In this document: positions 1-31,036 of the stretch, one piece after another
How the letters are laid out: the number at the start of each line of letters is the position of its first letter
How positions within the stretch are numbered: position 1 is the first letter of the stretch
Origin: Prevotella sp.
GTDB lineage: Bacteria; Bacteroidota; Bacteroidia; Bacteroidales; Bacteroidaceae
DNA length: 64,000 bases
Direction: 5' to 3'
NCBI GenBank assembly: GCA_017538105.1
Contig: JAFYJN010000063.1
Location: 62,001-126,000 of the forward strand
Program-made: the position numbers and the translations under genes
The notes under the pieces: generated by a model
The model's input: the letters and a program-made list of their open reading frames with translations, nothing else
Told to the model about the DNA's origin: nothing
Database searches by the model: none

Positions 1-776
1 GTCTTGTTGGCCTCCAAGAGCACCAGTCCTTTCTTCTCCGCCAGGTCGAAGAGTTCCTCAGCCTGCCTCTCCTCCAGCACCATGGGTGTCTCGCAGAGCA
101 CATGCTTTCCCTGCTCCAAGGCATACTTCGTTTGCTGGTAATGTGCAAGATGGGGCGTGGCGATATAGACCGCATCAACAGAATCGACGAGTTGCTCAAA
201 ACTGGTGGAGTGTTGAGTGTTCGATGTTGAGTGTTCTTCACGCCCCCCCTCCATTTGTTGGATGAGGGCGTCGGATTGGGAGGGGTCAATATCGTAGACT
301 GCGCCGATGGTGACGGCGCTCACCTTGACCGCCTCCTTGGGGAAGCGGCAGGCGACACGTCCCGCGCCCACAATACCGATGCGCACCTCGTTGTCCTGCT
401 CCTCGCGCAGCATGGTCGACGAGATTCCCTCCGTTCGGGGAAGGTACACAACCTGGCAGTATTCGTTGAGGTAATCAAAGTGACCCACCCAATCGCTGCC
501 CACGGTGAAGATGTCCACGTCGTATTTCTGTATGTCGTCTATCTTCTGTCCGAAATAGTCCTCTATGATGATCTTGTCAGCGATGCCCGTTGCACGTACA
601 GCCTCTACGCGTTCCAGCACATTGTTCTTCACGTTGAGTTTGCCACGCAAGCGATCGAAGTTATCATTCGTTACCCCCACGATCAGGTAGTCGCCCAGCG
701 CCTTCGCCCTTTTGAGCAGGTTGATGTGCCCCTGGTGGAGCAGGTCGTAGGTTCCGTATGTGATTACTTTTTTCAT
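1..776 (-). CDS. Fused glycerol-3-phosphate cytidylyltransferase-like / Gfo-Idh-MocA oxidoreductase (3' end outside window)
   Basis: The N-terminal ~130 residues are a TagD-type nucleotidyltransferase: they open with the strand-loop TYGTYDLLHQGHINLL, which holds the HxGH motif, and end with RTEGISSTMLRE, matching the ISST region of CTP:glycerol-3-phosphate cytidylyltransferases. Directly after it, in the same frame, comes a Rossmann start (VRIGIVGAGRVA) and then VYIATPHLAHYQQTKYALE and GKHVLCETPMVLEE, typical of Gfo/Idh/MocA NAD(P)-dependent oxidoreductases. The protein is therefore a fusion, truncated here by the left window edge. It is the last visible gene of the leftward polysaccharide operon, about 50 bp below the GDPD gene. 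A role in making or activating a CDP-alditol for surface decoration is inferred from the domains. A stretch near residues 180-190, rich in His, Ser, Thr and Asn, is encoded by a repeat that looks like intergenic spacer. Confidence 0.85.
   Translation of the reverse strand, partial: MKKVITYGTYDLLHQGHINLLKRAKALGDYLIVGVTNDNFDRLRGKLNVKNNVLERVEAVRATGIADKIIIEDYFGQKIDDIQKYDVDIFTVGSDWVGHFDYLNEYCQVVYLPRTEGISSTMLREEQDNEVRIGIVGAGRVACRFPKEAVKVSAVTIGAVYDIDPSQSDALIQQMEGGREEHSTSNTQHSTSFEQLVDSVDAVYIATPHLAHYQQTKYALEQGKHVLCETPMVLEERQAEELFDLAEKKGLVLLEANK
211..236. repeat. Two copies of the 12-mer TGTTGAGTGTTC inside a coding region
   Basis: The 12-mer occurs at 211-222 and again at 225-236, within the oxidoreductase half of the fused protein. 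An exact third copy lies in the non-coding spacer at 28326-28337, and close variants occur around 23140-23175. The reading frame stays open across it. Confidence 0.85.
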
Positions 777-823
777 AGCAAATAGTTTTTCTTTATCTCG
801 TTAGTAATCTTTGTATTAGATAG

Positions 824-1630
824 TTATTCCAGATGAAGCGTTCTTTCTAACTCTCTGGCTTTTCCAGGAATATCGGTCGTCACGAAAACACCTTGTTCCA
901 AATATGATTGGATGAGGCTCTCGCCATTCACCGTCCACACCCATACCTGCATGCCCCTGTTTATGGCCTCATCTATCCAGTCAGGATAAATGTCAAACGT
1001 CTGCGATGAATAATCTATGCCTCCGTAGCCCCTGTTCCATGCCGTTTCGGGGGAAAGAGATCCACTAAGGAAAAGCGTCTTGTAGCCGAAGCCATAGCCG
1101 ATTAGCCTATCGCACAGGTTCTGGCTGAAGGAGATGAAGTCCACCCTGTTGAGCACACCGATGGAATCCACCATCAACAACAGTTTATCCACGCTGCACG
1201 ACTTGAGTTCTATGACCAGCCGCACTTTACCCGTATCATGGCTAAGGGAAATCAGGAATTCGTCCAGCAATGGCAGCGGCTCACCGTTTTCCAAAAGATG
1301 TTGACTGAGTGTGGCATAATCGGTCTTGGAAATAGTCAGTCCGGCGTACGTGGCATCATGGCAAACTACCAAACGTCCGTCCTTCGTCTGCCTCACATCA
1401 CATTCCGAGCCGTAAATGTCCATGTCAAGAGCCTTCTGGAAGGCCGCCAAAGAGTTTTGCGGCTGTCCCGTTTCCCGCCATGCTCCACGGTGGGCAATCA
1501 CCTTACTCTCAATATTGGAAACCTCCTCCGTCGGGATGACGATGTTGAGTTCCTCCTCATCCAGTCCGTGACTGCTCAGCGAACAGGAGAAGAGGAGAGA
1601 CACTAGGATTAAAGACAATAATTTTGACAT
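824..1630 (-). CDS. Glycerophosphodiester phosphodiesterase family lipoprotein
   Basis: A 268-residue protein with a lipoprotein signal (lipobox LLFSC, Cys16), so it is probably anchored in the envelope. The GDPD signature is complete: AHRG at His47-Arg48, NSLAAF at ~59-64, the SECDV metal-binding Glu76/Asp78, and CHDAT with His91. The family hydrolyses glycerophosphodiesters to glycerol 3-phosphate and an alcohol. It sits between the fused cytidylyltransferase gene and the LicD pair in the surface-polymer operon. That position suggests it trims or recycles glycerol-phosphate-like groups on the polymer rather than acting on membrane lipid (inference). The ATG at 1630 is the only start that keeps the signal peptide. 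Confidence 0.85.
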   Translation of the reverse strand: MSKLLSLILVSLLFSCSLSSHGLDEEELNIVIPTEEVSNIESKVIAHRGAWRETGQPQNSLAAFQKALDMDIYGSECDVRQTKDGRLVVCHDATYAGLTISKTDYATLSQHLLENGEPLPLLDEFLISLSHDTGKVRLVIELKSCSVDKLLLMVDSIGVLNRVDFISFSQNLCDRLIGYGFGYKTLFLSGSLSPETAWNRGYGGIDYSSQTFDIYPDWIDEAINRGMQVWVWTVNGESLIQSYLEQGVFVTTDIPGKARELERTLHLE

Positions 1631-1647
1631 ACGGAGGTCTGACAGGA

Positions 1648-2580
1648 TTATTTATCGGCAAGTATAACGGTATAGGAGCGGTCGGTATCGAAAATCACAT
1701 CACCGTGATAATTGGCTATTTGTTTCGGCGTCATATAGTCACCGTACTTGTTTTTGAGATGCGCGTCAAAGTCCTTCGGAACAGGCATTTGCACGAACTC
1801 AAAATCTAAACTGATTATGCCGTCTTCGGAATAGACGGACAAATCGTGGCCGCGATTGCTGAACTGGAAACTTAGCAGCGACCATCTCTTCTGACCCGTA
1901 CCATTGTACTGCGCACATGTCCGCTCAAACTTCTTCAGATAACGATCTTGCAAATGATACTGCCTGATAAAAGAACCAAACAAATAGTGACCGAACAACT
2001 TATAGGCATATTTCCAAGTAGGTTTCCTGTCAGGCGGGAAACGGTCGGTCATTTCCGACAGGATGCAAGCCTTGGCAAATAGTTTTTTAGCCTTATGGTT
2101 TTGTTGGGAGAGCAATTGATCATCATCCACAACCTCATCCATTGGAAAGATGTCAATGAATATTCCCTGGTTAAAACGATACCTTTTGTTGAACTCAAAG
2201 CACTGGATGCCCGCCGTCTGACTGTTCCTTAATCTGGCAAAACCTCTCATGAAACCCGGGTCGGTGTATTCGGTTTGGAAGAAGTAAGTATCCTTGAACT
2301 CATCCTGGGCCACTGCGCACAACTGCTCATAGTCGGCACGTGGCATCATCAAGTCAAGGTCGTCGTCCCAGGGGATGAAGCCATGGTGGCGGACAGCCCC
2401 GAGAATGGTACCTCCCGAAGCTACATAGCGGATACCATGCTTTTTGCAGACACGGTCGAACTCCACCAAGAGATCCAGTTCCACAGCCCACACCTCTTTC
2501 AACTGTCGGGTGACGGTGAATCCGCAACGTGTTTCTTCGTTGAGAAACCCTTCTGGAAGATTTATCTTCAGTGGAACCAT
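1648..2580 (-). CDS. LicD family phosphotransferase (first of a pair)
   Basis: A 310-residue LicD protein. The hallmark block at about residues 54-77 reads VASGGTILGAVRHHGFIPWD followed by DDLDL, which is the nucleotidyltransferase-fold GG and DxD core used by LicD, fukutin and related enzymes to transfer phosphocholine or alditol phosphate from a CDP donor. The ATG at 2580 overlaps the stop codon of the upstream gene as TGATG, so the two are probably translationally coupled. A GTG one codon earlier is less likely. CDP-alditol donors could come from the cytidylyltransferases at the two ends of the same operon (inference). No choline kinase is visible, so phosphocholine is not the favoured substrate. 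Confidence 0.85.
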   Translation of the reverse strand: MVPLKINLPEGFLNEETRCGFTVTRQLKEVWAVELDLLVEFDRVCKKHGIRYVASGGTILGAVRHHGFIPWDDDLDLMMPRADYEQLCAVAQDEFKDTYFFQTEYTDPGFMRGFARLRNSQTAGIQCFEFNKRYRFNQGIFIDIFPMDEVVDDDQLLSQQNHKAKKLFAKACILSEMTDRFPPDRKPTWKYAYKLFGHYLFGSFIRQYHLQDRYLKKFERTCAQYNGTGQKRWSLLSFQFSNRGHDLSVYSEDGIISLDFEFVQMPVPKDFDAHLKNKYGDYMTPKQIANYHGDVIFDTDRSYTVILADK

Positions 2581-3467
2581 CACTGTTGTTCTTTACCCTG
2601 CTCCCTCCAGTAATAGGAGCAGAGAGCATGGTTGGATTTACGTTTATCTTCAGGCGGCAACTGCATGTAGTCGCCGTATTTCGTGCGCATGAAATGGTCG
2701 TAGCCGTTGCACACACGGAACATAGCATCTTCGAAGGGGACAAGAACGGTGGAGGTGTAGTCGCTCATCTCCTGATACTCCTTCATGCCATAGCGCAGAT
2801 AGGAACAATTCCAGAAATGCCCCGTCGCGCGCCATGGTATTTTCGAAGCCGTCTGGTTGTAATGGGAAATCACCCGCTGTGGGGTGATGAACCAATCGTT
2901 GTACACCAGTTTCTTGACGCAGGTCTTCAACTTGTCGGCGCCCCCCTTTCGGGCAGAGAGGGGCGACTTGGCCGTTCTTGCATAGCAACTTTTTCTCCAA
3001 TGCCAGCGCAACTTTTCCAACAAGAGTTCACATTCTTTCTCGTCGTCAGGAGCACCGTCCAAAGGGAAGATATCTATCCACACCCCAGTGGGTTGATTGG
3101 CCCAAGGCATCTTAACGTTTACAGCCGACGTCTTCTCCATCTCGCACACCCGTGAGAAAGCCAGGAAATTCTCCTTGCTGCCAGAGGCAAACAGTTTGTA
3201 CCCCTTTTCCGACTGGTACATCTTCAAGAACCTCTCATAGTCGGGGCGTGGCATGGCGATATCGACATCGTCGTCCCAAGGAATGAACCCTTTATGGCGG
3301 ATGGCACCGATCATCGTGCCGCCGAAGAGCGTGTAATTAATTCCGTTCGCTTCACAGAACCGGTGAACATCCTTGAGAATCTCCAGACTTACTTGCTGGA
3401 CCTCTTGCAGGGTCATTTCTTTCATCATTGAATGAACTGTTACTAAGTCATCGTCTTTTGGACGCAT
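2580..3467 (-). CDS. LicD family phosphotransferase (second of a pair)
   Basis: A 295-residue paralogue of the neighbouring LicD gene, with the same core at residues ~49-70: FGGTMIGAIRHKGFIPWDDD then VDIAMPRPDY. The pairwise similarity is confined mainly to this N-terminal half, so the two proteins may use different acceptors. The ATG at 3467 forms a TGATG overlap with the stop of the ATP-grasp gene upstream, and its own stop overlaps the next LicD start in the same way. An in-frame TTG at 3470 is the alternative start. The assignment to the family is firm; the group transferred and the acceptor are unknown. Confidence 0.85.
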   Translation of the reverse strand: MRPKDDDLVTVHSMMKEMTLQEVQQVSLEILKDVHRFCEANGINYTLFGGTMIGAIRHKGFIPWDDDVDIAMPRPDYERFLKMYQSEKGYKLFASGSKENFLAFSRVCEMEKTSAVNVKMPWANQPTGVWIDIFPLDGAPDDEKECELLLEKLRWHWRKSCYARTAKSPLSARKGGADKLKTCVKKLVYNDWFITPQRVISHYNQTASKIPWRATGHFWNCSYLRYGMKEYQEMSDYTSTVLVPFEDAMFRVCNGYDHFMRTKYGDYMQLPPEDKRKSNHALCSYYWREQGKEQQ

Positions 3468-4693
3468 CAACTTTTCTGTTTTTTCAGGATTCTCCTAATC
3501 TTGTTTTTTGATTTCCTCAACAACCGCCACATGTATAACGAGGGAAGATCCTTTTTATACTTAATAAATATCTTAAATGGCGCCATGTCATTTTCGTCTT
3601 TCAAGAAAAAGATATCGGATTCCTCCATCGCGTGTTTATACTGACAATAGCGAATTTCCTTATAAAAATACTGGTCAAGAAGAGTTTTCTCATTTACGAA
3701 ACTCGCATCGGGAACCGACTTCTTTTCCTCATGCAAATCCCCATCAACGAGATAATTGATGAAAATGGAAGGCAGGTTGACAGAGGAGGCCGTGAGCGCA
3801 TAAGCACTCGCCCCCAAACGGGCGTTAAATTCGTTGAAATACAGTTTTCCCCCACTCTCATATAAGTCGATGTCAAACATACCCAGCAATTGTGTCTTTC
3901 TTACGAAGAGAGAAAGGCTCTCTTCCAAAGAAGGAATTTTTGAAATAGGGAAGATGCGACCAGTAGCCGTTACACCGCCGTGATCGCTTAGCATTTGAAA
4001 AACGGATGGAATGATAACCTTGTCCCTTATGGATAGTCCCACGACGGCATATTCTTTTTCTATCTCATGATACTCTTCCACCAAGAATGCTCCACCGTAA
4101 AACACAGCCACTTTTTCCAACAAAGCAGCCAACTCTTCCTTGGAGTCGCACCTTTTCAAATATTGCTTTAAAGGTCCGTTATAACTTTGTATCGGTTTTG
4201 TAAAACAAGGATAAACGATATCGGCAGGGATTTGATACGCCCCCTTCTCCTTCGTACAGACCCAACCTTCGGCCACATTCATGCCGATTTCCCGCGCCAA
4301 TCGCTTTTGGGATTCCTTATCCATGACTTTTGCCATTCCACCCTGTTCGTCATTGACGGTAGGCATCAAAAAATGATCTTTCAAGCAATCGTAATGCTCG
4401 TCGATGGCCCATGCCGTGAAATCATCCGTTGGCAACAAGACAACATTCTTATCACTGTCTTGCAACGAGTTGATCAAATCTATCAAACGATTCTTATAGG
4501 GTTCATTGCAGATGTAGCACTTTCTCACATACTTGCTACTCGCGTCGATCTTGCAAATTCTCTTTTGTTGTTTTTGAGTCTGTATGACAATGACCTCACA
4601 GCCAGCCAATCCCGCTGCCCTTATCATACCCAAACGTGACGCATAATTCCTACCCATCACAATTGCGATCGGTGTCGTTTCTTTATTGTTCAT
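3467..4693 (-). CDS. ATP-grasp family ligase
   Basis: A 408-residue cytoplasmic protein with the layout of ATP-grasp carboxylate-amine or carboxylate-thiol ligases. It has an N-terminal Rossmann-like segment (IAIVMGRNYASRLGMIRAAG), an ATP-binding segment with YPCFTKPIQSYNG and AFLVEEYHEIEKEYAVVG, and the metal-binding end LYFNEFNARLGASAYAL, where Glu and Asn fit the Mg-ATP ligands. Members join amino acids or similar groups to a carboxylate, so it could add an amide-linked substituent to the polymer (inference). It is translationally coupled to the LicD pair through TGATG, which suggests that the three work on one modification. The C terminus is strongly basic (RLLRKSKNKIRRILKKQK), perhaps for membrane contact. 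Confidence 0.8.
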   Translation of the reverse strand: MNNKETTPIAIVMGRNYASRLGMIRAAGLAGCEVIVIQTQKQQKRICKIDASSKYVRKCYICNEPYKNRLIDLINSLQDSDKNVVLLPTDDFTAWAIDEHYDCLKDHFLMPTVNDEQGGMAKVMDKESQKRLAREIGMNVAEGWVCTKEKGAYQIPADIVYPCFTKPIQSYNGPLKQYLKRCDSKEELAALLEKVAVFYGGAFLVEEYHEIEKEYAVVGLSIRDKVIIPSVFQMLSDHGGVTATGRIFPISKIPSLEESLSLFVRKTQLLGMFDIDLYESGGKLYFNEFNARLGASAYALTASSVNLPSIFINYLVDGDLHEEKKSVPDASFVNEKTLLDQYFYKEIRYCQYKHAMEESDIFFLKDENDMAPFKIFIKYKKDLPSLYMWRLLRKSKNKIRRILKKQKS

Positions 4694-4713
4694 CTTTCAA
4701 GACCATTACTAAA

Positions 4714-5664
4714 TTATTCCAAAAAGGCAACTGCATATGGCGACGAAACAGCAGCCAAAGCACATTGTTTGCAGAGGACAATGTCTTCTTCAGTTCCTTC
4801 GATTACCGAGCCATGCTGCTGTGGTATGCGTTTTTTGCTTACCCAATCCTGTGTTATACGAATTCTACTACTCTCTATCGATTTTCCAGTATTAAAGATA
4901 CCCGCCAAACATTGCGCTGCAGTATAAGCCTCCAACAGGCAAGGCAGCCCTTCTTGCAAATGGGTTCCCTCATAACTCAAATATCCATAATCCCCCAAGA
5001 CCTTCAAGTGAGTGTGCAAAGCATTTTGTATGGCCGTGCCACATGGAATGACAAAATCCACCAACCCTTCTTGAAGCAATGTTTCCGCGATACTGGCGAA
5101 TTCGCCCCATTGGTCATCGAGATTGTCATCACTTAGTTTTTTGGGATTTGGCGGATCCAACATCAATGCATACGATATCGCCCCGAAATTATCTGTCAGG
5201 AACTGGCGGATATCTTGTACGGATTGCCTCATCACATCAAGTCGATTTGAACTCCACGTATTCTGCAGAATCACCAGGTCCCATTTTTTAGAACCCAGTA
5301 CGGTGCTTGCCCGTTCCCCTTTGAATGTTTGCCATACCGACTGTGATCTGTATAAGTTGACATCCGATTCAAAATCGGAATAATCTCCTATCATTCGATT
5401 ATAATGCCCAGCCAAACTTTCACTTCCCTTATAAAAAATCAACATGTTCAAGGGATTGTTCTTATCCATTTCTTCCATCAGTGCGGGAACATAACTGAAA
5501 GCGTCTCTGCTTGCGGAATTACCTATCACCAGGACATTGTGGACAGTTGTGGGCGGTGTAGGCGTATCTACGTTGTTCAGTACCTCGGCGAAATCGTCAT
5601 CGCTTCCAGAGCATGACATGAATGACAGGAAAAAAAAGAAGAAAGAGAGATTGAATAATTTCAT
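4714..5664 (-). CDS. DUF4886 / SGNH-type hydrolase lipoprotein
   Basis: A 316-residue lipoprotein: a phenylalanine-rich signal peptide, lipobox SFMSC, then an acidic SGSDDD linker. The body begins VHNVLVIGNSASRDAFSYVP, the block I in which DUF4886 and SGNH hydrolases carry the nucleophilic Ser. Near the C terminus YEGTHLQEGLPCLLEAYTAA gives a conserved Gly-Thr-His-Leu, fitting the catalytic His. SGNH proteins in polysaccharide loci usually remove or transfer acetyl groups, so it may be an O-acetyl esterase acting on the exported polymer (inference). It lies 20 bp below the ATP-grasp gene and 8 bp above the end of the GNAT gene, in the same operon direction. Confidence 0.75.
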   Translation of the reverse strand: MKLFNLSFFFFFLSFMSCSGSDDDFAEVLNNVDTPTPPTTVHNVLVIGNSASRDAFSYVPALMEEMDKNNPLNMLIFYKGSESLAGHYNRMIGDYSDFESDVNLYRSQSVWQTFKGERASTVLGSKKWDLVILQNTWSSNRLDVMRQSVQDIRQFLTDNFGAISYALMLDPPNPKKLSDDNLDDQWGEFASIAETLLQEGLVDFVIPCGTAIQNALHTHLKVLGDYGYLSYEGTHLQEGLPCLLEAYTAAQCLAGIFNTGKSIESSRIRITQDWVSKKRIPQQHGSVIEGTEEDIVLCKQCALAAVSSPYAVAFLE

Positions 5665-5672
5665 TTCAACAA

Positions 5673-6284
5673 TTATATTCCGAAACGTTTGATATATCCA
5701 GGTTTAAACCTCACCTTTGCATAGACTTTTCTTAAGAGAAACATACCTTTGCAATACCATTTGGGAAACGGGCTCTTTCCTACCCATTTAGCCATATGGA
5801 CCGCATAAATGCCACCGGTCTTGTAGGGTCGGAAGAAAACGTGGCGGAACCCATTATTTTTCAGTATCGTTTGCGAATGATAATTTCTTTCCGCGGTATC
5901 CATTTCAAAAAGTCGAAAGCCTCGTTTAATCGCATCCTCTTCTCTCAATTTGCACAAGCGGGCATAAATACCTTTTCCTTCATATTCAGGCGACACCGCC
6001 TCCAAGATAAAATAAGCAGAAACTTGGCCTTTGTCGTACCACATGTTTCTCCTAACAGGCTTATACGAACACGTTCCCACCAATTTTCCGTCCTTGATGG
6101 CTACGAAGCAACGGCCCTCGGCACCAACGACCTTTTCCAACTCATCCCCAGGAAGACTGGGATAGAGCATGTTCATACCAGCGGCTCTGTTACGTTCGTG
6201 CGCCTTCCATAACAAATCATGAATGTCGTCCCAAGTAACATGACTTGGTTTGAAGCAAAAAATAATATCAGAAAAGTCCGACAT
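5673..6284 (-). CDS. GNAT family N-acetyltransferase
   Basis: About 203 residues from the ATG at 6284; a longer reading would run into the upstream gene and is unlikely. The acetyl-CoA-binding region is seen as YFILEAVSPEYEGKGIYARL followed by CKLREEDAIKRGFRLFEMDT, and the later segment NYHSQTILKNNGFRHVF is the usual GNAT helix-strand end. The substrate is unknown; an amino sugar or an amine on the polymer precursor is plausible from the context. The start lies 4 bp after the stop of the ATP-grasp gene upstream. The C-terminal ~50 residues are basic and aromatic. Confidence 0.8.
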   Translation of the reverse strand: MSDFSDIIFCFKPSHVTWDDIHDLLWKAHERNRAAGMNMLYPSLPGDELEKVVGAEGRCFVAIKDGKLVGTCSYKPVRRNMWYDKGQVSAYFILEAVSPEYEGKGIYARLCKLREEDAIKRGFRLFEMDTAERNYHSQTILKNNGFRHVFFRPYKTGGIYAVHMAKWVGKSPFPKWYCKGMFLLRKVYAKVRFKPGYIKRFGI

Positions 6285-6288
6285 ACAA

Positions 6289-7374
6289 TTACCTAAATGT
6301 GTTTTTCTTCGGCCACAATTCTTTGAGGATCCGTTCGGTATACTTACCAAAGCCAGGGCCATAAGCCGACTGGCTCAATCCAACCCGTTGGTTCCACTCT
6401 ATCAACACGGGATCACCCTCGACGTCAATGGCGATGTCCCATCCAATCAGGTCAAAATAAGGCAATTGGAAATGCAATTTCTTTACGGTTTCTATGGCCT
6501 TATCATACGACGGCAATTGATAGCCTTCCAAAAACGTTCCGGCATCAGTCTTAAGGATATTATCCTCTTCATAGCCGCCAAAACCGAATTTTCCCAAACA
6601 ACCGTTTTCATCTATGACAGCGCTTATGCCTCCAGCACACTGGTTGTCAACGACAGAACCCATCTTCCCTATCCTGACAACAGCATAAACCAGTAGGATT
6701 TCCATATCCGAACGATAGGTAACGATTCGGATGGTATTGACAGAAGTGGGGTTGAGCGCATCCATCCGTTCATGCTGGTGCAATCTCTCTTGCAACAAGA
6801 AATTCTTACGGTACTGCCTAAAAAGTTCCTTAAGCGACAATCCATCGATATTCGTTGTTCCATCTTTGACAGTTACGCTTTGGATGCCTTTACCTTGAGA
6901 AGAAAGAGCAGGCTTAATCAAGACATCCGACAAATTCTTACATCTATCAAGTGCTTCCTGTTCGGAAACAGGTTCGCCCTCAAAATAATAATGCCCATTC
7001 ATACATTTTAGGATAGTATGTGGCATCTTTATCCCTGAAAGCAACTTATCGGTAATATTCTTGTCGCCGTAAGAAGGTATAAACGGCCAGCGGTTGGCTC
7101 TTCCCACCAACTCGACCATATAGAAATTTGTGGGAATATAGAATTTCGAATAAACACCCGTTCGGGAATAGAAATACTCGTGCGAATAGAGATCGATTTT
7201 TCGCCCGATTGTTTTTTTGTAAAAATCCTGAATCTCCTGCTTTTGTTCGGCAGAAAGTTTCATGTGGTTTTTGAGATGTTTCATATGAGAAGTTATTTCT
7301 CTCTTCAACTTCTTCATTTCCCGCCGTTTTCTGAATTCCAGCAGCAGGAGACCACCCTTCTTTTTAATATTCAT
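6289..7374 (-). CDS. Sugar-transfer-associated ATP-grasp protein
   Basis: A 361-residue protein matching the ATP-grasp subfamily found in sugar-transfer and exopolysaccharide loci. Key stretches are DVLIKPALSSQGKGIQSV (ATP-binding lysine and glycine-rich loop), NFLLQERLHQHERMDAL, TSVNTIRIVTYRS, and IEWNQRVGLSQSAYGPGFGK, where Glu-x-Asn supplies the metal ligands. The N-terminal ~60 residues are highly basic and helical (RKRREMKKLKREITSHMKHL). The chemistry is presumably ATP-dependent ligation to a carboxylate. It is the second, unrelated ATP-grasp enzyme in this operon, which strengthens the case for amide or ester substituents on the product. Confidence 0.8.
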   Translation of the reverse strand: MNIKKKGGLLLLEFRKRREMKKLKREITSHMKHLKNHMKLSAEQKQEIQDFYKKTIGRKIDLYSHEYFYSRTGVYSKFYIPTNFYMVELVGRANRWPFIPSYGDKNITDKLLSGIKMPHTILKCMNGHYYFEGEPVSEQEALDRCKNLSDVLIKPALSSQGKGIQSVTVKDGTTNIDGLSLKELFRQYRKNFLLQERLHQHERMDALNPTSVNTIRIVTYRSDMEILLVYAVVRIGKMGSVVDNQCAGGISAVIDENGCLGKFGFGGYEEDNILKTDAGTFLEGYQLPSYDKAIETVKKLHFQLPYFDLIGWDIAIDVEGDPVLIEWNQRVGLSQSAYGPGFGKYTERILKELWPKKNTFR

Positions 7375-7378
7375 AAAT

Positions 7379-8599
7379 TTATTGTTTTTCTTTTCGCGGA
7401 TTACATACCACGAGTTTGTTATTATCCATTTCCAACGTTCTCAGCAATGCCTGGCGCATACTGTCATGTTTCAAGGTGCGCTGCACAGGCTCATCTGTTT
7501 TTAACGGTTTTCCCAGAACCTTTTTCTTCCAATAACCGAGAAGAGCCTTTGTAGACTGTTTAACGGTGTATTTATGCAAAGAGGAGTCTATAATCGGAAC
7601 GACTTCTTCTATCATTATCCTCTTTACTTGCTTCTCAAAGCACTCATCATATTCCTTTTTGTCGACGAGATAATGACAGAGTTGTCGGTTGTGTTCATTC
7701 CTTGCCGGTTCGTTATCAACCACAATACCAAGGTTGTCTACATTTCTTGTATTGATGGTTTTATAAGTTATAGAACCTTCTTCTATGTTCAAGATCACAC
7801 AAAGTCCTTCATACCAGTGAGGACGGTTCCACGCTCGATAGGAATAATTCTGTTTGCTATTGAAAAGGAAATTCCCCAAACTATAGAAAATTGGCTTACC
7901 CTTGTACGTCTCCCACCCCTGGGGACAATGGGGATGTGTTCCAATTACGGCATCTGCTCCATAATCTACGAAATCACGGTATCGTGCAATGGTTTCCGGC
8001 GTGGGGATATCCACATATTCAATACCATCATGTGGAAGAACTATGAGATAATCCACCTCTTTCTTTGTACGTATGATTATATGATTGACTTGCAAGTCGT
8101 TGATGTACGCACTTCCATAGCCTTCATGACTCGTCACATCATTGAACACGCCGAAACGGGCGGCAAAAGACAATGCCAAAAAGCCTACCTTCGTACCCTT
8201 GACTTCAACAATCTTGATTTTGTAAGCCTCTTCGTATGTGCCCGAACCGAAAGGCGTATTTTGGAATGAAGCAAACGTTTTCTCATAACCCTTTAAGCCA
8301 TAATCAAACACATGATTGTTTGCGAGAGGAAAAAGATCAAAACCGAGATTCTCCAAAAAAGCCGGAGCGTCATCGCTTTGATAAAAACGACCGGCCTTAG
8401 GCTTCATCCCTTCCGGTTTTAATGGAACCTCAAAATTTACCAACTTCAAGTCGCATGAACGAATTAGGTCCGTCAATTCTTCCGACACCTTGATAGGCGC
8501 AGTAGATGGCTTTGAGCAAAAATCGCCAGCAAAGAATATGGTTATTTTACTGTTATTTTGCATATTGGACGACGTTTTCACACCATTTATAGTAGTCAT
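7379..8599 (-). CDS. CapA-family (PGA_cap) metallophosphatase-like protein
   Basis: Up to 406 residues, with the CapA/PgsA calcineurin-like fold: TIFFAGDF at the N terminus, LVNFEVPL, FPLANNHVFDYGLKG with the NNH motif, ADAVIGTHPHCPQGWETYKG, and IFYSLGNFLFN. CapA-type proteins are linked to poly-gamma-glutamate capsule formation and to related surface polymers; several act as hydrolases. No membrane anchor or signal peptide is evident, which is unusual for CapA and suggests a cytoplasmic role here. The first ATG (8599) overlaps the upstream gene by 47 bp. A second in-frame ATG at 8563 would cut the overlap to 11 bp and still keep the whole domain. No PgsB/C-like partners are seen. Confidence 0.8.
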   Translation of the reverse strand: MTTINGVKTSSNMQNNSKITIFFAGDFCSKPSTAPIKVSEELTDLIRSCDLKLVNFEVPLKPEGMKPKAGRFYQSDDAPAFLENLGFDLFPLANNHVFDYGLKGYEKTFASFQNTPFGSGTYEEAYKIKIVEVKGTKVGFLALSFAARFGVFNDVTSHEGYGSAYINDLQVNHIIIRTKKEVDYLIVLPHDGIEYVDIPTPETIARYRDFVDYGADAVIGTHPHCPQGWETYKGKPIFYSLGNFLFNSKQNYSYRAWNRPHWYEGLCVILNIEEGSITYKTINTRNVDNLGIVVDNEPARNEHNRQLCHYLVDKKEYDECFEKQVKRIMIEEVVPIIDSSLHKYTVKQSTKALLGYWKKKVLGKPLKTDEPVQRTLKHDSMRQALLRTLEMDNNKLVVCNPRKEKQ

Positions 8600-9917
8600 G
8601 GATTAGTTTTTTGTTCCGGATGTATATATGCCACGTGAGTATTAATTCACAATTATATCTCTTTGCCGACTCGATCACAGGCCTTATCTCCTCCCAAATT
8701 TCTTCTTCTGTTTTCTCCTTCCGATGGTACCGAATAACAGTATCCATAATTTGGCATGGATGCTCGCGTAAATTCATAGGCTTTCTTCTATATATATCAA
8801 AAAGAAAATAAGGAACAGCCACGCCACTTCTATATCCCAATTTGTTGTGGAACACGCAATTACTGATTTCCAAGACCCCACCTAAAGTGTTTTCAGCCAT
8901 CTTTTCCCACATCCTAAGCATTTCATAGTTGTAAAGCAAATGATGGTTACGTCCTATTTCTGGGGTAATCTCTAATAGTGTAGTTATTCTATTGCGTTCT
9001 TTCTCCCATCGCCGTTCATTTCCAAAGGTGTTTTGGGACGGGTGAAAACCCAAAACCAATTTCGGATTGTTCATTTCTTTAAGGCGTTTTACTATATCTA
9101 TAGTTTGGTCCGCATCATAATTGTAAGTACACTCTTTTTCTCCCTTATTACACACTTTGAAGTAAAACCATTCATATATGTCAAACTTCTTACATAATTC
9201 CGTGTAAAAATGGAACTGACTGAACGCATTAAACGCCTTCTTGTATTTAATCTTTTCTGTCCATGTCAAATTAAGAACTTTATTCTTAGGAGGCCCATGC
9301 CTAAGATGACGCACAATACTCTTTGCGATATCTCCATAAGAAGGTGTCAAGAACCCATCCACATCATGTGACATGACAACCTTGTATTCCCTTTTCTTGA
9401 ATAGGACTCCACAATCAGAAAGTATAAAACGAAGCAATTCCTCATACTCATGCACAATAGGACGCGAATATATGTCGTTCTTAACGGAAAAAAGATTTGT
9501 TTCATCACAATCTCCTTTTTCTTCTCTTCCCAACAAAGATTCTTCCCATCTAGATACCATAAAAAAAGTAGATGCAAAAACGTCCAACCCAATCGTTATT
9601 GTATTTCCTTCTTTTTCAAACCTGTCTTTGCCGTAAATGATGGGTATTGTGTTGTTTAATGCATGGAGAAAAATCAATTCTGTTGGAATGTTGGTCTTGT
9701 CAAGATAAGACAAGGGCTCGGGATGGTTTTTGAAGAAATGGTCCTCGATGATTATTTGCCTGTCATCAATTTGGATCATATATGATTCTGCTGTGGCATC
9801 AAAAACAATTTTGTAATCGTTTTTGCTTATTTCCAGCAATGTTTGAAAAAGAATATCAATTGCGTATGTACGCTCTGGGATATTATCATTATGACAGGTT
9901 ATTGTTATCATGGACAT
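8553..9917 (-). CDS. Polysaccharide deacetylase-like protein (NodB-fold, Bacteroidota type)
   Basis: A 454-residue protein. The N-terminal ~160 residues form the accessory domain typical of long Bacteroidota deacetylase-like proteins. The catalytic-type half starts at VVMSHDVDGF (the Asp of the metal site) and continues with LGFHPSQNTFG, GRNHHLLYNYEMLRMWEKMA, the GYRSGVAVPYFLFDI block and REHPCQIMDT. It lacks the canonical HxxxH in standard spacing, so whether it deacetylates is not certain. A second ATG is at 9911. The coding sequence is visibly AT-richer than the rmlB end of the operon. It probably modifies the polymer or a lipid-linked intermediate (inference). Confidence 0.75.
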   Translation of the reverse strand: MSMITITCHNDNIPERTYAIDILFQTLLEISKNDYKIVFDATAESYMIQIDDRQIIIEDHFFKNHPEPLSYLDKTNIPTELIFLHALNNTIPIIYGKDRFEKEGNTITIGLDVFASTFFMVSRWEESLLGREEKGDCDETNLFSVKNDIYSRPIVHEYEELLRFILSDCGVLFKKREYKVVMSHDVDGFLTPSYGDIAKSIVRHLRHGPPKNKVLNLTWTEKIKYKKAFNAFSQFHFYTELCKKFDIYEWFYFKVCNKGEKECTYNYDADQTIDIVKRLKEMNNPKLVLGFHPSQNTFGNERRWEKERNRITTLLEITPEIGRNHHLLYNYEMLRMWEKMAENTLGGVLEISNCVFHNKLGYRSGVAVPYFLFDIYRRKPMNLREHPCQIMDTVIRYHRKEKTEEEIWEEIRPVIESAKRYNCELILTWHIYIRNKKLIHDYYKWCENVVQYAK

Positions 9918-9941
9918 CCTTTCTGAAATAATGAAAAAACA

Positions 9942-11417
9942 CTATGAAGTAAATTTCTTCTTATATTTTGCTAAAATGGGGGTGACAATACTCTTTGTAT
10001 AGAGATAAGACTCTGGCTTAAAGAAATGCGACCAACAAATATAGAGCACTACAAAAATGATTAGTTTTACTGCGCCATCAGCATACAAGTTCAAATGTAA
10101 GATCGTTCCACATAAATAGCTAATGATACCCGCCACGACGACAGCTACACTTATGGGAAGAAGATCCATAAGTTGCTGAGTCCATTTGTATCCTATATGC
10201 TTAGATACCAACCAAATATTAACAAAGTAAGAAAACCAACAATTAAAAATAACCCCACCCAACAAGCCATACATCCCAAAAACCAACAATCCCACCAGTA
10301 CGGCGGTCACACCTAACACACGCTTTACTACTGTCCAAATAAACATAGTCTTGCTTTTCCCTATGGCAGCAATAGGTTGGGTGTTAACGGCAGTAAGGCA
10401 TGCGCCCAATCCTGAAATACATAAAACTTGGAAATAGGGTATACTCTCCACCCACCGGTCTGAATAGAGGATGATGAAGAGGGGGCGCGCCACCAATAAA
10501 AGGATGGCAAGCAAAGGGAAAGTGATATAAGCGATGGTTGTTGTGATACGCTTAATCATATTACGCATCGCAGGCATATCATCTTGCACTTCAACATATA
10601 GTGGATATGTAACCGAGATCATTACACCGGAAATGGTATGCGATGCCAATTTTTCGGTACTTTGTGCTTTCGAATAGTAACCTAATGTGTCTGCTCTATA
10701 GAATCTTCCAATTAAAAGGTTTTGAACTTGACCACTAAGACTATTCAACAGATGGGTAAAGAACATATATATTCCAAAGCTGAATAGTTCCTTGAACGAT
10801 TTCCAAGAGAACGTCCAAGATGGCCTCCACTTAGTATAAAACCAGAACGCTACCATTGGAATGGCTGCGCCAATGAGGTATTGAGTAACCAAGGCCCACA
10901 CACCAAATCCCAAATATGCCATGATGATAGTGACAATAAGCGCAATAATGGAAGTGGCAATCCTTGTTACCGCTATCACCTTGAATTTTAGTTGTTTCCT
11001 AAGCTGGTTACGTTGCACAAGATTAAGGGCATAAATGAAAAGAATGATTCCTTGTACACGTAACACATCACACAACACAGGTATTTTGTAGAACCTTGCG
11101 ATGGCAGGAGCCGACAAGAACAAAGCTATATAAAAAATAACAGCTAAAAAAAGATTCCAATGAAAAACTGTAGAATAATCCGCCTGAGTAGGTTTCTTCT
11201 TTTGAATTAATGCGGCGCCAAAACCTCCGTCAATAAATGAATCCGCAAAAGTGATAAACACAGTTAGCATCCCGATGCAACCATAATCGTACGGCGTAAG
11301 CAGACGAGCGAGCACGATGCCCGAGATGAACTGAATGCCCATCTTCGAGAATTTCTGGATGGTAGTCCAGATCATTCCCGAAGCGGCTTTCTTTTTGAGA
11401 TTCTTTTTTCGAGGCAT
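9942..11417 (-). CDS. Oligosaccharide flippase (Wzx/TuaB-like, MOP superfamily)
   Basis: A 491-residue integral membrane protein with about 12-14 hydrophobic segments. It begins with a basic N terminus and the family signature AASGMIWTTIQKFSKMGIQF, followed by LARLLTPYDYGCIGML and FGAALIQKK. This is the lipopolysaccharide/teichuronic-acid exporter type of the MOP superfamily. It should move a lipid-linked polymer unit across the inner membrane. It lies between the opine-dehydrogenase-like gene (16 bp) and the deacetylase-like gene. The presence of a flippase but no ABC exporter points to a Wzx-type route, with the polymerase presumably outside the window. Confidence 0.88.
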   Translation of the reverse strand: MPRKKNLKKKAASGMIWTTIQKFSKMGIQFISGIVLARLLTPYDYGCIGMLTVFITFADSFIDGGFGAALIQKKKPTQADYSTVFHWNLFLAVIFYIALFLSAPAIARFYKIPVLCDVLRVQGIILFIYALNLVQRNQLRKQLKFKVIAVTRIATSIIALIVTIIMAYLGFGVWALVTQYLIGAAIPMVAFWFYTKWRPSWTFSWKSFKELFSFGIYMFFTHLLNSLSGQVQNLLIGRFYRADTLGYYSKAQSTEKLASHTISGVMISVTYPLYVEVQDDMPAMRNMIKRITTTIAYITFPLLAILLLVARPLFIILYSDRWVESIPYFQVLCISGLGACLTAVNTQPIAAIGKSKTMFIWTVVKRVLGVTAVLVGLLVFGMYGLLGGVIFNCWFSYFVNIWLVSKHIGYKWTQQLMDLLPISVAVVVAGIISYLCGTILHLNLYADGAVKLIIFVVLYICWSHFFKPESYLYTKSIVTPILAKYKKKFTS

Positions 11418-11433
11418 TCTTGCGGTTTAGGTA

Positions 11434-12522
11434 TTATCCTTTTATCGCTTGCTTGATATCTTCTACAGTCACATCGTCCTTGCCCAACAAATACTGTATC
11501 GTCCTTGCCCCATAACGCAGGTCTTTGTTCAACAAGGCGGAAGACAAAGCAACAATTCCTTCTTGAATAGACGTGTCAACACCTACCAACTTGGCAACTG
11601 ATATATATAGCCCCAATCCCATAGGAACATCTTCATTTAAATAACGATGGTTGATAAATGAAGGACCTTTGTTAGAAGAGTCTGCAAAGGAACGGAACAC
11701 CGTCATGGCATCTATACTCAAATCTTCCTCATTGCGCCATTTGGCAGCCTCGAAATAGTCCAAAGGCTCGCAATCGAAAGCCTGTAAGACTTTGTTCTTC
11801 TCTACGTCGAATGCCTTGATTACATTCACGACGGATGGAGTGAAAGCCTCACGATACATCCAAAACTCGCCATTGCTATATTCTATTCTCGAAGCGGAGA
11901 ATAGGATACCTATAGGATGTACTATCATGTTGGGATTGTGGAAAGCAGACTCAAGAATATGCCTACGGGTGTACTTCGTGTTGTCGAAGCAGGCTGAAAG
12001 CATGTCAACAACCTCTTGAGTACGAGACACCGGCAAGACAGAAATGGCATTTCTCGGATTATAGAAAGAGATCCTCACATATTCCGAATTAACTATTCGG
12101 CCATTATAGGCCGTTGTTTCCCACTCGCTATAAGTGATATCCTTGTTGATGTATTTCTTGAAAATCAGACTACCCATATAACCGGGAACGAGAATGATGG
12201 TTTGGCCGTCTTTTACAAATGGTGCGATTAATTGAGCTACAAATTCATGTTGCGACGTGGTTGTCGTCACCATGATAACATCTGCAAAACGAATAGCCGC
12301 CTTTACATCCCTAGTGATAAGAACAGGTTTCACAACAAATTCACGCCCATTACCCTGTATGGTATCGTCTTTGGCACGGAAGCATTTCTCTTCTTTAATA
12401 ATGTCGAAATATCTTCCGTTGGTATTTGAGGTCTTCAACAAGGCTACCTCATGACCTTTTTCATAAAGTTTGGCTGCATGTATCAAACCGGAATTGCCAC
12501 AGCCTACTATTGTAATCTTCAT
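11434..12522 (-). CDS. NAD(P)-dependent opine (octopine/nopaline) dehydrogenase family protein
   Basis: A 362-residue protein with an N-terminal Rossmann fold (MKITIVGCGNSGLIHAAKLY) and the central and C-terminal regions of the octopine dehydrogenase family: DVIMVTTTTSQHEFVAQLIA, ESAFHNPNMIVHPIGILFSA and EFWMYREAFTPSVVNVIKAF. Family members reductively couple an amino acid to a 2-keto acid; some in cell-surface loci act on other keto substrates. It sits directly between the IspD-like cytidylyltransferase gene (gap ~70 bp) and the flippase gene. It may supply the unusual building block that is then activated by CTP or ligated by an ATP-grasp enzyme (inference). No opine synthesis partner is otherwise visible. 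Confidence 0.82.
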   Translation of the reverse strand: MKITIVGCGNSGLIHAAKLYEKGHEVALLKTSNTNGRYFDIIKEEKCFRAKDDTIQGNGREFVVKPVLITRDVKAAIRFADVIMVTTTTSQHEFVAQLIAPFVKDGQTIILVPGYMGSLIFKKYINKDITYSEWETTAYNGRIVNSEYVRISFYNPRNAISVLPVSRTQEVVDMLSACFDNTKYTRRHILESAFHNPNMIVHPIGILFSASRIEYSNGEFWMYREAFTPSVVNVIKAFDVEKNKVLQAFDCEPLDYFEAAKWRNEEDLSIDAMTVFRSFADSSNKGPSFINHRYLNEDVPMGLGLYISVAKLVGVDTSIQEGIVALSSALLNKDLRYGARTIQYLLGKDDVTVEDIKQAIKG

Positions 12523-12591
12523 AATTTTTGTGATATTAACTTGGTAATAATATATTTCAAATTCTGCAAATCTATCTCTACGAACAACTAA

Positions 12592-13293
12592 TTATGAGGA
12601 TAGATTGTCTACAACTTTCTCTTTGATGGCGTTAAGGTCTTCTGGATAAGTCACCTTGATATTACGAGAGTCTCCTTCTACGACATAGATGGGTATTTCA
12701 GGCAGGTAACGTTGCACCACGCCGCAATCATCGGTGGTGACGAAAGCGGGGTCGGCCAGTGCTACATCATAGGCGCGGCGTATAGAGCCGGCACGGAAGC
12801 CCTGCGGGGTCTGTGCATTGCGAAGATGTGAGCGTGGTGGGATGTCGACAATCATCTGGTTGTCATCAACGCGGTAGATGGTGTCGGTGGTGGGAATGGC
12901 CACGGTCACAGCGTCGAAGCTTTCCAATGCCTTGACGCAGTCAGTAATGATGCGCTCACTCACGAACGGACGCACCGCATCGTGGAAAAGTAGGCAATCT
13001 TCATCGTTGTCATACACTGCAAGGGCCGCAAGGCTAGAATAGTAACGTTCCTTGCCACCGGGAAGTACCTTTTTGACCTTGCTGTATTGGTTAGAGGCCA
13101 TGAGATTTTCCATCTCGGCAAGGTGGTCGGGATGACAGACAATGGCTATCTCGTCGATGAGCGGATGGCAGTCAAAGGCATCGATAGTATACTCAATGAT
13201 CCGTTTGTCTCCCACCTTGAGAAACTGTTTGGGCGTGTCACCACCAAAACGGGTGCCGCTGCCTCCAGCAAGTATAATGGCGATGGTTTTCAC
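12592..13293 (-). CDS. IspD/TarI-family cytidylyltransferase
   Basis: A 233-residue protein with the IspD/TarI nucleotide-binding signature ILAGGSGTRFGGDTPKQFLK, then LLFHDAVRPFVSERII, RNAQTPQGFRAGSI and TTDDCGVVQRYL. These enzymes couple CTP to 2-C-methylerythritol 4-phosphate (IspD) or ribitol 5-phosphate (TarI). Because it is embedded in a surface-polymer operon with LicD proteins, and no isoprenoid gene is near, a CDP-alditol function is favoured over IspD; the sequence alone does not decide this. It uses a GTG start that overlaps the rmlB stop as GTGA. No TarJ-like reductase is adjacent; the opine-dehydrogenase-like protein takes that position. Confidence 0.82.
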   Translation of the reverse strand: MKTIAIILAGGSGTRFGGDTPKQFLKVGDKRIIEYTIDAFDCHPLIDEIAIVCHPDHLAEMENLMASNQYSKVKKVLPGGKERYYSSLAALAVYDNDEDCLLFHDAVRPFVSERIITDCVKALESFDAVTVAIPTTDTIYRVDDNQMIVDIPPRSHLRNAQTPQGFRAGSIRRAYDVALADPAFVTTDDCGVVQRYLPEIPIYVVEGDSRNIKVTYPEDLNAIKEKVVDNLSS

Positions 13294-14351
13294 CTCTTAC
13301 TATACATCTCGTCGTAGTACTTCTGGTAGTCACCAGAAGTGACACGGTCCATCCATTCCTGATGGTCGAGGTACCACTTCACCGTTTTCTCTATACCTTC
13401 CTCAAACTGCAATGACGGCTCCCAACCCAGTTCACGTTTGAGCTTGCTGGAGTCGATGGCATAGCGCAAGTCGTGGCCCTGACGGTCGGTAACGAAAGTG
13501 ATGAGGTCGTCGTCGGCTCCCTCAGGACGTCCAAGCAACCGGTCGACGGTGCGGATGAGCACATGGATGATGTCGATGTTTCGCCATTCATTGAAACCAC
13601 CGATGTTATAGGTCTCAGCGATGATGCCATGATGGAAGATGGTATCGATGGCACGTGCGTGGTCCTCCACATAGAGCCAGTCACGCACATTCTCACCCTT
13701 GCCATATACGGGTAATGGCTTGCGATGACGTATATTGTTGATGAAGAGGGGGATAAGTTTCTCGGGGAACTGGTAGGGTCCATAGTTATTCGAACAGTTG
13801 GTCACGATGGTGGGCATACCATAGGTGTCGTGATAAGCACGGACGAAGTGGTCACTCGATGCCTTCGATGCCGAATAAGGACTATGTGGCTGGTATTTCG
13901 TCTGCTCGGTGAAGAGTGTGCCATCAAACTCCAACGCGCCATAAACCTCGTCGGTGGAGATATGGTAGAACCGCTTGCCCTCGTAACGCTCGGGCAGCGA
14001 TTCCCAATACACCTTGGCGGCCTGCAATAGCGACAAGGTACCCAACACATTGGTCTTGGCGAAGGTAAAGGGGTCGCGTATTGAACGATCGACATGGCTC
14101 TCTGCGGCCAGGTGGATGATGCCGTCGATTTGGTGCTCTTGCATGAGTGCGAGCATAGTGTCGAGATCGCAGATGTCAGCTTTGACAAACGTATAGTTGG
14201 GTTTGTCCTCCACATCGGCCAAGTTCTCGAGGTTACCAGCATAAGTCAGCTTATCGACGCAAACAATGTGATATTCAGGATATTTGTTGACAAACAGTCT
14301 TACTACATGGGAGCCTATGAATCCTGCTCCACCAGTGATGATAATGTTCAT
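13290..14351 (-). CDS. rmlB: dTDP-glucose 4,6-dehydratase
   Basis: A 353-residue extended short-chain dehydrogenase. Seen directly: the NAD-binding TGGAGFIGSHVVRLF, HLAAESHVDRSI, the catalytic ISTDEVYGAL with Thr-Asp-Glu, the YSASKASSDHFVRAYH Tyr-x3-Lys motif, and NNYGPYQFPEKLIP. It converts dTDP-glucose to dTDP-4-keto-6-deoxyglucose, the branch point to rhamnose and many amino sugars. It is the first gene of the leftward operon. RmlA, RmlC and RmlD are not in the window. The ATG at 14351 follows a leader of about 280 nt from the predicted promoter. Confidence 0.95.
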   Translation of the reverse strand: MNIIITGGAGFIGSHVVRLFVNKYPEYHIVCVDKLTYAGNLENLADVEDKPNYTFVKADICDLDTMLALMQEHQIDGIIHLAAESHVDRSIRDPFTFAKTNVLGTLSLLQAAKVYWESLPERYEGKRFYHISTDEVYGALEFDGTLFTEQTKYQPHSPYSASKASSDHFVRAYHDTYGMPTIVTNCSNNYGPYQFPEKLIPLFINNIRHRKPLPVYGKGENVRDWLYVEDHARAIDTIFHHGIIAETYNIGGFNEWRNIDIIHVLIRTVDRLLGRPEGADDDLITFVTDRQGHDLRYAIDSSKLKRELGWEPSLQFEEGIEKTVKWYLDHQEWMDRVTSGDYQKYYDEMYSKR

Positions 14352-30945: not shown

Positions 30946-31009
30946 CAATGGGCAATTATCAGCAAGCTTCGCCATCATAATGAAAAATTCACTTTGACTT
31001 TTGGACCAT

Positions 31010-31036
31010 CTGTCCCCCTCCCTTTGGAGGGGGCAG
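31010..31036 (+). repeat. Hairpin in the galM-transporter spacer
   Basis: CTG plus CCCCCTCC pairs with GGAGGGGG plus CAG around a 4-nt loop, with one bulged T. A T-rich stretch follows, so it may attenuate transcription between the two genes. Similar C5/G5 hairpins occur at 62880-62903 and, shorter, at 38475-38489. Confidence 0.5.

Follow-up and report, generated by a model that had tools for sequence, protein, structure and literature searches.

A Prevotella operon predicted to build an exported surface glycan with phospho-alditols and amide-linked amino acids

Gene content of the operon

The stretch of DNA analysed here, hereafter the window, comprises 64,000 nucleotides from a Prevotella sp. 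assembly (GCA_017538105.1), in all likelihood of a gut bacterium from the rumen, and corresponds to positions 62001-126000 of contig C84 (JAFYJN010000063.1; 159,685 bases), the genome being rated at 99.73% completeness and 5.5% contamination. The subject of this study is an operon for a putative surface polymer that occupies positions 1-14351 of the window, where 14 long open reading frames (ORFs) are all found on the minus strand, and that continues for about 6.3 kb to the left of the window edge with six more genes on the same strand. The whole operon thus comprises 20 genes in 20.6 kb (C84:55717-76351, minus strand), and beyond its left end, across a gap of 294 bases, two genes that were named by eye lie on the opposite strand, one for a leucine-rich surface protein and the other dnaK.

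The first gene of the operon encodes the dTDP-glucose 4,6-dehydratase RmlB (13290..14351; PF16363, and TIGR01181 at 474.7 bits against a cut-off of 365.1) and is followed by genes for an IspD/TarI-type cytidylyltransferase (12592..13293; PF01128, 170.5 bits), an opine dehydrogenase of the octopine/nopaline type, hereafter ODH (11434..12522), and a flippase-type polysaccharide export protein (9942..11417; PF13440, 322.5 bits). Next come a deacetylase-like DUF7033 protein distantly similar to VimE (8553..9917; PF23019, 51.5 bits), a CapA-like PGA_cap protein (7379..8599; PF09587, 157.4 bits), an ATP-grasp ligase of the ATPgrasp_ST type (6289..7374; PF14397, 155 bits against a cut-off of 31.4), a GNAT acyltransferase (5673..6362, the true start being probably at 6284; PF00583, 41 bits) and an SGNH-like lipoprotein, which Pfam assigns to DUF4886 (4714..5664; PF16227, 45.9 bits) and in which a lipobox-like FMSCSG was recognized by eye. 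A second ATP-grasp enzyme, AG2 (3467..4693), two LicD phosphotransferases (2580..3470 and 1648..2583), a glycerophosphodiesterase lipoprotein of the GDPD family (824..1630; PF03009, 59.8 bits) and a fusion of a TagD cytidylyltransferase to a Gfo/Idh/MocA oxidoreductase, hereafter TagMoc (1..776; PF01467 and PF01408, both above cut-off), complete the set within the window. TagMoc is cut by the window edge, its entire sequence of 457 amino acids being found at L010:1403-2776 and ending at C84:61403. To the left of the window lie the genes for an SDR protein (C84:60635-61330), a TagF-like glycerophosphotransferase (C84:59452-60621; PF04464, 160 bits), a Wzy-type polymerase (C84:58176-59450; PF04932, 43.9 bits), a third LicD (C84:57434-58222), a hexapeptide (LbH) acetyltransferase (C84:56784-57395) and a GT4 glycosyltransferase (C84:55717-56781; PF00534, 115 bits), and the related locus L141 ends in the same way, its TagF, Wzy, LicD, LbH and GT4 proteins being 71, 49, 43, 33 and 59% identical to those found here.

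For most of these 14 genes, Pfam agrees with the families that an earlier reading of the bare letters, the original prediction, had named, and places RmlB, IspD, octopine dehydrogenase, the flippase, PGA_cap, ATPgrasp_ST, GNAT, the two LicD, GDPD and both parts of TagMoc above their curated cut-offs. That reading had also found the operon to lack any glycosyltransferase, a claim which no longer holds since GT4 is encoded 5-6 kb beyond the edge in the same operon, although its accompanying suspicion that the lack might merely reflect the window edge has turned out to be right. The leftward extension that it had proposed as a check revealed one glycosyltransferase together with Wzy, the latter some 3-4 kb from the edge. 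It is unusual that a single sugar transferase stands beside two ATP-grasp ligases and as many as four transferases of phospho-alditols, and no capsule locus rich in glycosyltransferases was found to the left as part of this operon. Glycosyltransferase genes do occur elsewhere in the genome: a second and more ordinary polysaccharide locus, in which several of them accompany an initiating transferase, is found at 3-22 kb of C84 (L173; L174:1016-2125), about 35 kb away and with other genes between, and another glycosyltransferase locus, with two more LicD, is found on C59.

That the 14 genes run leftwards was likewise correct, and the largest intergenic gap among them is 69 bases (IspD to ODH); the one promoter that had been claimed for them as well is putative. 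A simple sigma-70 promoter scan of L010 performed approximately as chance (34 sites against a mean of 31.7 in shuffled sequence), and a simple terminator scan fell below it (12 against 17.2). The sequence TAnnTTTG, which we take to be the Bacteroidetes promoter type, was seen by eye upstream of RmlB near 14643, while the fuller pattern TTTG-N18-22-TAnnTTTG has no exact match before this gene. Elsewhere in the window the fuller pattern occurs at seven sites (31023, 49082, 55296, 58462, 60912, 63450 and 63529), where shuffled sequences lead one to expect 1.27.

Recurrence of the gene series in other Bacteroidales

A search for the gene order in other genomes, also proposed at the outset, recovered the same gene types as a modular series in 32 Bacteroidales loci, consisting of a predicted opine-forming dehydrogenase, the flippase, often an N-deacetylase, and then pairs of CapA and ATP-grasp genes. 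The query of the scan that found the loci consisted of four aligned ATPgrasp_ST proteins, three of them from contigs that agree in length with those of L154, L170 and L171, and the presence of ATPgrasp_ST is accordingly by construction. The loci reach at most 10 kb to each side of the ATP-grasp gene, so that absences may be truncations, and several of them are related to one another. Their 609 ORFs were clustered, and the clusters received their names from BLAST comparison with annotated genes and from Pfam searches of 20 representatives; of the 196 ORFs left unassigned, 108 were furthermore scanned with Pfam, the remaining 88 being outside that scan. A livestock gut site is mentioned in the title of 13 loci, and 14 carry RUG isolate names, which presumably denote rumen genomes.

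The loci hold 82 ATPgrasp_ST, 30 AG2-type, eight TupA-type and six other ATP-grasp ORFs (126 in total), together with 44 CapA, 25 flippases, 17 GNAT and 15 ODH. The 126 ATP-grasp ORFs are to be compared with about 29 glycosyltransferase ORFs, made up of a GT2 cluster of 12, GT4 clusters of 11, two single matches and four found among the 108 scanned unassigned ORFs, in which GT2 is outside the 25 families listed (down to those with two members) and can therefore add at most two more. A low content of glycosyltransferases thus seems to be a trait of the group within 10 kb of the ATP-grasp gene, the exceptions being L154 and L171 with their rows of GT2. As to the repetition of single genes, six ATPgrasp_ST are found in L149, five in L162 and six in L168, some of them alternating with CapA. 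A metabolic cassette of a C-C bond lyase, an aldo-keto reductase, MmgE/PrpD and a TPP enzyme is located near the ATP-grasp gene in L144, L159 and L164, with parts of it in L149, L150 and L160, and perhaps makes an unusual acid that is used as a building block.

Two predicted opine-forming dehydrogenases

ODH scores 107.6 bits against PF02317 (cut-off 30) and aligns end to end with the opine dehydrogenase of PDB entry 1bg6, N-(1-D-carboxylethyl)-L-norvaline dehydrogenase, its best match in the PDB (residues 5-360, E 8.6e-28). H202 and D298 of ODH align with H202 and D297 of 1bg6, do not vary among the 11 sequences that were aligned out of 16, and are taken by us to be the catalytic His/Asp pair of opine dehydrogenases. 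A second type of dehydrogenase occurs in other loci, for instance at L151:6815-8023, and the one member compared with the PDB has alpha-aminoadipic semialdehyde synthase as its best match (E 8.7e-30), within which the matched part is presumably the saccharopine-forming lysine-ketoglutarate reductase; saccharopine dehydrogenase follows at E 7.7e-13 and alanine dehydrogenases at 9.6e-7 at best, while the NCBIfam scan listed only alanine dehydrogenase and transhydrogenase, both far below cut-off. Of the 12 proteins of the second type, the ten that were aligned are 61-76% identical to the first of them. Octopine- and saccharopine-type reactions have in common that an amino acid and a keto acid are joined as a secondary amine.

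As to the distribution of the two types, ODH is present in 15 of the 32 loci, the second type in 11, neither in six and both in none, for which the hypergeometric probability is 1e-4 if the loci are independent. One of the ODH proteins, that of L150, a locus sharing one contig with L162, is distant (20% identity to that of the window), and leaving L150 out gives 14 loci with ODH, 11 with the second type and none of 31 with both, at a chance of 1.5e-4 on the same assumption of independence. When the 25 loci with a flippase are reduced to one locus for each of the 19 groups formed at 80% flippase identity, nine have the second type, seven have ODH, three have neither and again none has both. Moreover, the gene directly before the flippase is ODH in eight and the second type in seven of the 25 flippase loci, which makes 15, to be compared with a mean of 1.2 and a maximum of 7 when gene order was shuffled within loci 2000 times. 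Next to the flippase, two unrelated predicted opine-forming enzymes hence stand in for one another without ever occurring in the same locus, and this mutual replacement is the best evidence that an opine would be a building block of the product.

ATP-grasp ligases, CapA and the deacetylase

In the ATPgrasp_ST family, K105, K154, D313, E326 and N328 are found in 81 of 81 aligned proteins (83 sequences), and a search of the PDB with the profile gave no matches. The second ATP-grasp enzyme of the original prediction is less firmly placed than the first, as AG2 scores 23.1 bits for PF02222 where the cut-off is 27. Its E288-x-N290-x-R292 motif and K126, K130 and K166 are nonetheless invariant in 24 aligned of 31 relatives, and we take these residues to be of the ATP-grasp kind.

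CapA is followed by ATPgrasp_ST 28 times among the 44 CapA of the survey, the shuffled mean being 6.5 and the maximum 14. No CapB- or CapC-type family is present among the 20 genes of the operon, and a poly-gamma-glutamate capsule was accordingly rejected. In the PDB, CapA matches only chains of MslH at E 0.01 or better (best 8gq9, E 1.9e-10), MslH being a peptide epimerase of calcineurin-like fold with the metal ligands E44, N87, H259 and H261 and the dyads H88/D91 and H295/D11 (PMC10406935). D26, E57, N95, H96, D99, H190 and H224 of CapA are invariant in 35 aligned of 45 sequences (D26 in 42 of 43 in another alignment), although the strong part of the alignment of the two proteins covers H295 alone among the MslH residues, H259 having been placed by motif. 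The position of H261 is taken by an invariant glycine, G192, and the score for the MslH model NF038314 is 39.9 bits against 700. An epimerase function of CapA is therefore only possible, since the residues fit a phosphoesterase-type metal site as well.

The protein described at the outset as deacetylase-like reaches 89 bits with the VimE model NF053580, well under the cut-off of 440, and has an H184-D185-x-D187 motif and an H292 that are invariant in six aligned of eight sequences. A deacetylase of one of two families is found directly after the flippase in ten of 25 loci (VimE-like in six, YdjC in four). The VimE-like type is confined to loci with ODH (7/7, Fisher p 0.0019) and YdjC never accompanies ODH (0/7), an association which would couple a freed amine to the opine step. 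The two deacetylase types, present in seven loci each of the 32, do not overlap, which is not significant alone (p 0.14), and neither is the co-occurrence of YdjC with the second opine type (4/7, p 0.20).

Enzymes of phospho-alditol transfer

The three LicD proteins score 147.9, 147.4 and 125.6 bits for PF04991 (cut-off 22.6) and each contains a WDDD(L/V/M)D motif. In the TagD half of TagMoc, the HxGH and RT.G.SS motifs (H14, G16, H17, R114, T115, G117, S119 and S120) are invariant in 10 of 10 aligned fusions and the best PDB matches are the glycerol-3-phosphate cytidylyltransferases 2b7l and 1coz, while the NCBIfam TagD model TIGR01518 is missed at 116.1 bits against 165.4. Full-length fusions of this kind occur in nine of the 60 genomes searched, the present one included, and in G300.

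In the Gfo/Idh/MocA half, the EKP lysine, which we take to be the usual catalytic residue of these oxidoreductases, is kept in one of ten aligned fusions and is T, I or S in the rest (T in the window), and the GxGxxA motif, presumably for nucleotide binding, is kept in five, including that of the window, and lost in the other five. This half is thus probably changed or inactive, and TagMoc may possibly represent a pseudo-oxidoreductase tied to an enzyme of CDP-alditol synthesis. An SDR gene lies beside TagMoc in this operon, in G009 and G019 and in five of five loci of the above survey (one being the G019 contig), and the SDR may make the alditol phosphate.

Exchange of a cassette between species

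DNA identity to the close relative L170 and the related L169, measured in steps of 150 bases, is 97-100% from about 8,540 to 12,600, that is across ODH, flippase and deacetylase, and 93-98% over most of IspD, apart from 84% in the final step of L170, close to where that contig ends. RmlB is 82-90% identical to that of L169, and at the other side identity drops to 67-77% inside CapA. By gene, the values relative to L170 are 99.5% for the flippase, 99.0% for the deacetylase, 98.8% for ODH, 92.4% for IspD, 79% for SDR, 77% for TagMoc and 65% for CapA. Since an identity of about 99% with sharp edges compares with 87% for the recA of this other species (G019, listed under the same genus), the cassette of ODH, flippase and deacetylase has probably moved between lineages after their split, which would make it a unit of antigenic change, perhaps under pressure from phages or the host.

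As regards other features, the tRNA and Rfam scans of the window gave no matches, and a cluster of genes for sugar use (aldose epimerases, galactokinase-like, arabinose isomerase, kinase, epimerase, transketolase and RpiB, named by eye from the starts of the ORFs) is found at 29863-45979.

Proposed product and its assembly

We conclude, with a probability of roughly 60%, that the operon builds an exported surface glycan carrying phospho-alditols and amide-linked amino acids, one of which would be an opine. While gene content, families, key residues, gene order with its recurrence and the exchange of the cassette are established, all substrates and the order of the steps are what we infer. The original prediction had foreseen CDP-derived alditol phosphates, which the TagD half with its catalytic motifs, the TagF-like transferase and the three LicD now support, and likewise amide-linked or opine-like groups, with which the alignment of ODH with 1bg6, the two ATP-grasp enzymes and the series in 32 loci are in good agreement.

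Synthesis would begin with a short sugar on undecaprenyl, for which the initiating transferase would come from another locus and which GT4, the only one in the operon, would lengthen. TagD, perhaps aided by the adjoining SDR, would form a CDP-alditol, probably CDP-glycerol, from which the TagF-like enzyme and the three LicD would transfer alditol phosphate. The VimE-like deacetylase could then free an amine on an amino sugar, ODH could form the opine from an amino acid and a keto acid, and the ATP-grasp ligases could attach this opine, amino acids or both through amide bonds, after which CapA would act on the ligase product by epimerisation or hydrolysis and GNAT would cap it. The unit would finally be exported by the flippase and polymerised by Wzy, and the SGNH and GDPD lipoproteins may trim the product outside the cell.

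A bolder version, which we hold to be improbable, regards the series of ATP-grasp and CapA genes as an assembly line, in which each ligase adds a residue and the adjacent CapA inverts its stereocentre. The result would be a non-ribosomal peptide that contains D-residues, has an opine as its end group and is built on an exported lipid carrier or on a stub of glycan, very few sugars being involved, and species would vary this product by exchanging the opine enzyme and by adding further pairs or substituting them. If true, ATP-grasp enzymes, and not glycosyltransferases, would be the main makers of such a class of surface polymer.

The glycan with phospho-alditols and an opine has consequences of its own, in that a recurring Bacteroidales gene order would acquire a predictable chemistry of surface polymers that bear opines and phospho-alditols. 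The opines of O-antigens were discovered chemically and could here be predicted from DNA, and the pairing with ATP-grasp enzymes gives CapA-like proteins a testable role beyond polyglutamate synthesis. It should also be mentioned that both amide-linked opines of O-antigens and a TupA-like ATP-grasp amidoligase for a capsule have been described before (PMC10609480, PMC11800379), while a search of the literature, which covered few subscription journals, found no published description of this gene series.

Weighing of the alternatives

A number of observations weigh against the glycan proposed above. The operon has no initiating transferase of PF02397, copies being found at C5, C59 and C84:3313; AG2 remains under its Pfam cut-off, as noted; and the choline-transferase model Mf1 gives 73.9 and 91.2 bits for LicD where 225 are demanded. 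No match to the operon SDR lies beside TagMoc in G012, G016, G017, G020, G024, G053 and G300, and this lack of generality, together with the single distant protein among the 15 ODH, slightly lowers our confidence. The close relative L170 has the part from IspD to SDR and is without LicD, TagF, Wzy and glycosyltransferase, its next gene being on the opposite strand, so these parts are not obligatory, and L169 continues with a distant TagF-like gene. Finally, the six loci with neither opine gene also suit a teichoic-acid-like phosphoglycan to which ATP-grasp, CapA and GNAT add simple amino acids only, such as alanine or serine amides, with ODH being a plain reductase of some other keto or imino acid. 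Many capsules and O-antigens do carry plain amino acids in amide linkage (PMC10609480), and LicD, the TagF-like enzyme and TagD are all present, but such a reductase would not predict that an unrelated type, best matched by a saccharopine-forming enzyme, takes the same place elsewhere, nor does it sit easily with a full-length alignment of ODH to an opine dehydrogenase in which the conserved pair is kept; we consider this explanation rather unlikely. It is more unlikely still that the deacetylase, GNAT and ATP-grasp part makes no polymer and instead an aminoacylated linking sugar that anchors secreted proteins in the manner of the Wbp/Vim pathway and the type IX secretion system. The match of 89 bits to VimE points in that direction, and VimE and VimA of P. 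gingivalis are proposed to exchange N-acetyl for serine or glycine (PMC7468200), yet the cut-off of 440 bits is missed by far, no WbpA, WbpE or WbpD type is present among the 20 operon genes, to which the search for them was confined, the operon includes a Wzy polymerase, and the locus differs greatly from one species to another, in the way of polymer loci.

The role of IspD is a matter within the phosphoglycan itself, since the idea that it makes CDP-ribitol in the manner of TarI or Bcs1, with ribitol phosphate as a main component of the polymer, is compatible with the structure that we favour. The reaction of the CDP-ribitol synthase Bcs1 has been described (PMC10299916). Among PDB entries IspD matches 2vsh best (115.7 bits), listed as IspD, and then the ribitol-5-phosphate cytidylyltransferase 4jis (105.1 bits). 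We take 2vsh to be TarI-like. The clade of IspD proteins with at least 49% identity is mixed, seven of its 17 members (L114-L130) being fused to an SDR, presumably the layout of Bcs1, and six adjoining LicD, while the copy in L126 is in a housekeeping-like setting beside recG, named by eye. On the other hand, the operon IspD is the genome's only homologue above the PF01128 cut-off, and the same genome has the isoprenoid enzyme IspF; TIGR00453 is reached (193.2 bits against 181.3), the ribitol model NF001183 is narrowly missed (159.8 against 166), and so is, by a wider distance, the equivalog NF001186 (162.8 against 253). The clade is found in 17 of 120 genomes of the genus, 11 of which have no other match at E 1e-15 or better, a threshold that hides weaker copies, 12 of the 120 genomes showing none. 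A certain TarI is therefore untenable, and the operon SDR is a weak candidate for a ribitol partner, being 23-25% identical to the SDR halves of two IspD-SDR fusions and paired with TagMoc instead in relatives, if not in all. IspD may have its role in isoprenoid synthesis, in making the polymer or in both, and it may even be a housekeeping enzyme, a further point against the proposed glycan; CDP-ribitol synthesis hence remains a tentative suggestion, somewhat on the doubtful side. An operon rich in CTP activation, as originally described, is accordingly retained for TagD and weakened for IspD as a polymer-specific enzyme, the latter being the sole copy above cut-off in a genome with IspF.

Comparison with known systems

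The CapA proteins share the calcineurin type of the lasso-peptide epimerase MslH, and seven of eight functional residues correspond, though H261 has become G192 and the score is far under the cut-off of the MslH model (PMC10406935). The Wbp/Vim linking-sugar pathway shares N-deacetylation and the subsequent transfer of an amino acid onto the amine thus exposed (PMC7468200), but here the deacetylase is only distantly similar, ATP-grasp ligases are present and the operon is without Wbp genes. Formation of amides by an ATP-grasp enzyme is likewise known from the Campylobacter jejuni capsule amidoligase Cj1438C (PMC11800379), which is however TupA-like and joined to a glycosyltransferase, whereas the enzymes found here, ATPgrasp_ST and AG2, are free-standing and in relatives often in tandem. 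With wall teichoic acids and teichoic-like capsules (TagD, TagF and Bcs3; PMC10299916) the operon shares the synthesis of CDP-alditol and polyol phosphate transfer by the TagF family, and it differs in that LicD-type enzymes outnumber TagF, that Wzy and a flippase are present, and that amino-acid ligases make up a good part of it. The type of product predicted here, a sugar with an amide-linked opine, is that of the opine O-antigens, such as those of Providencia alcalifaciens O35 with alanopine on Qui4N and P. rustigianii O14 with carboxyethyl-lysine on GalA (PMC10609480), and relative to these, compared by product only, the present system stands out in that its ATP-grasp/CapA pairs are multiplied and its opine enzyme is exchangeable.

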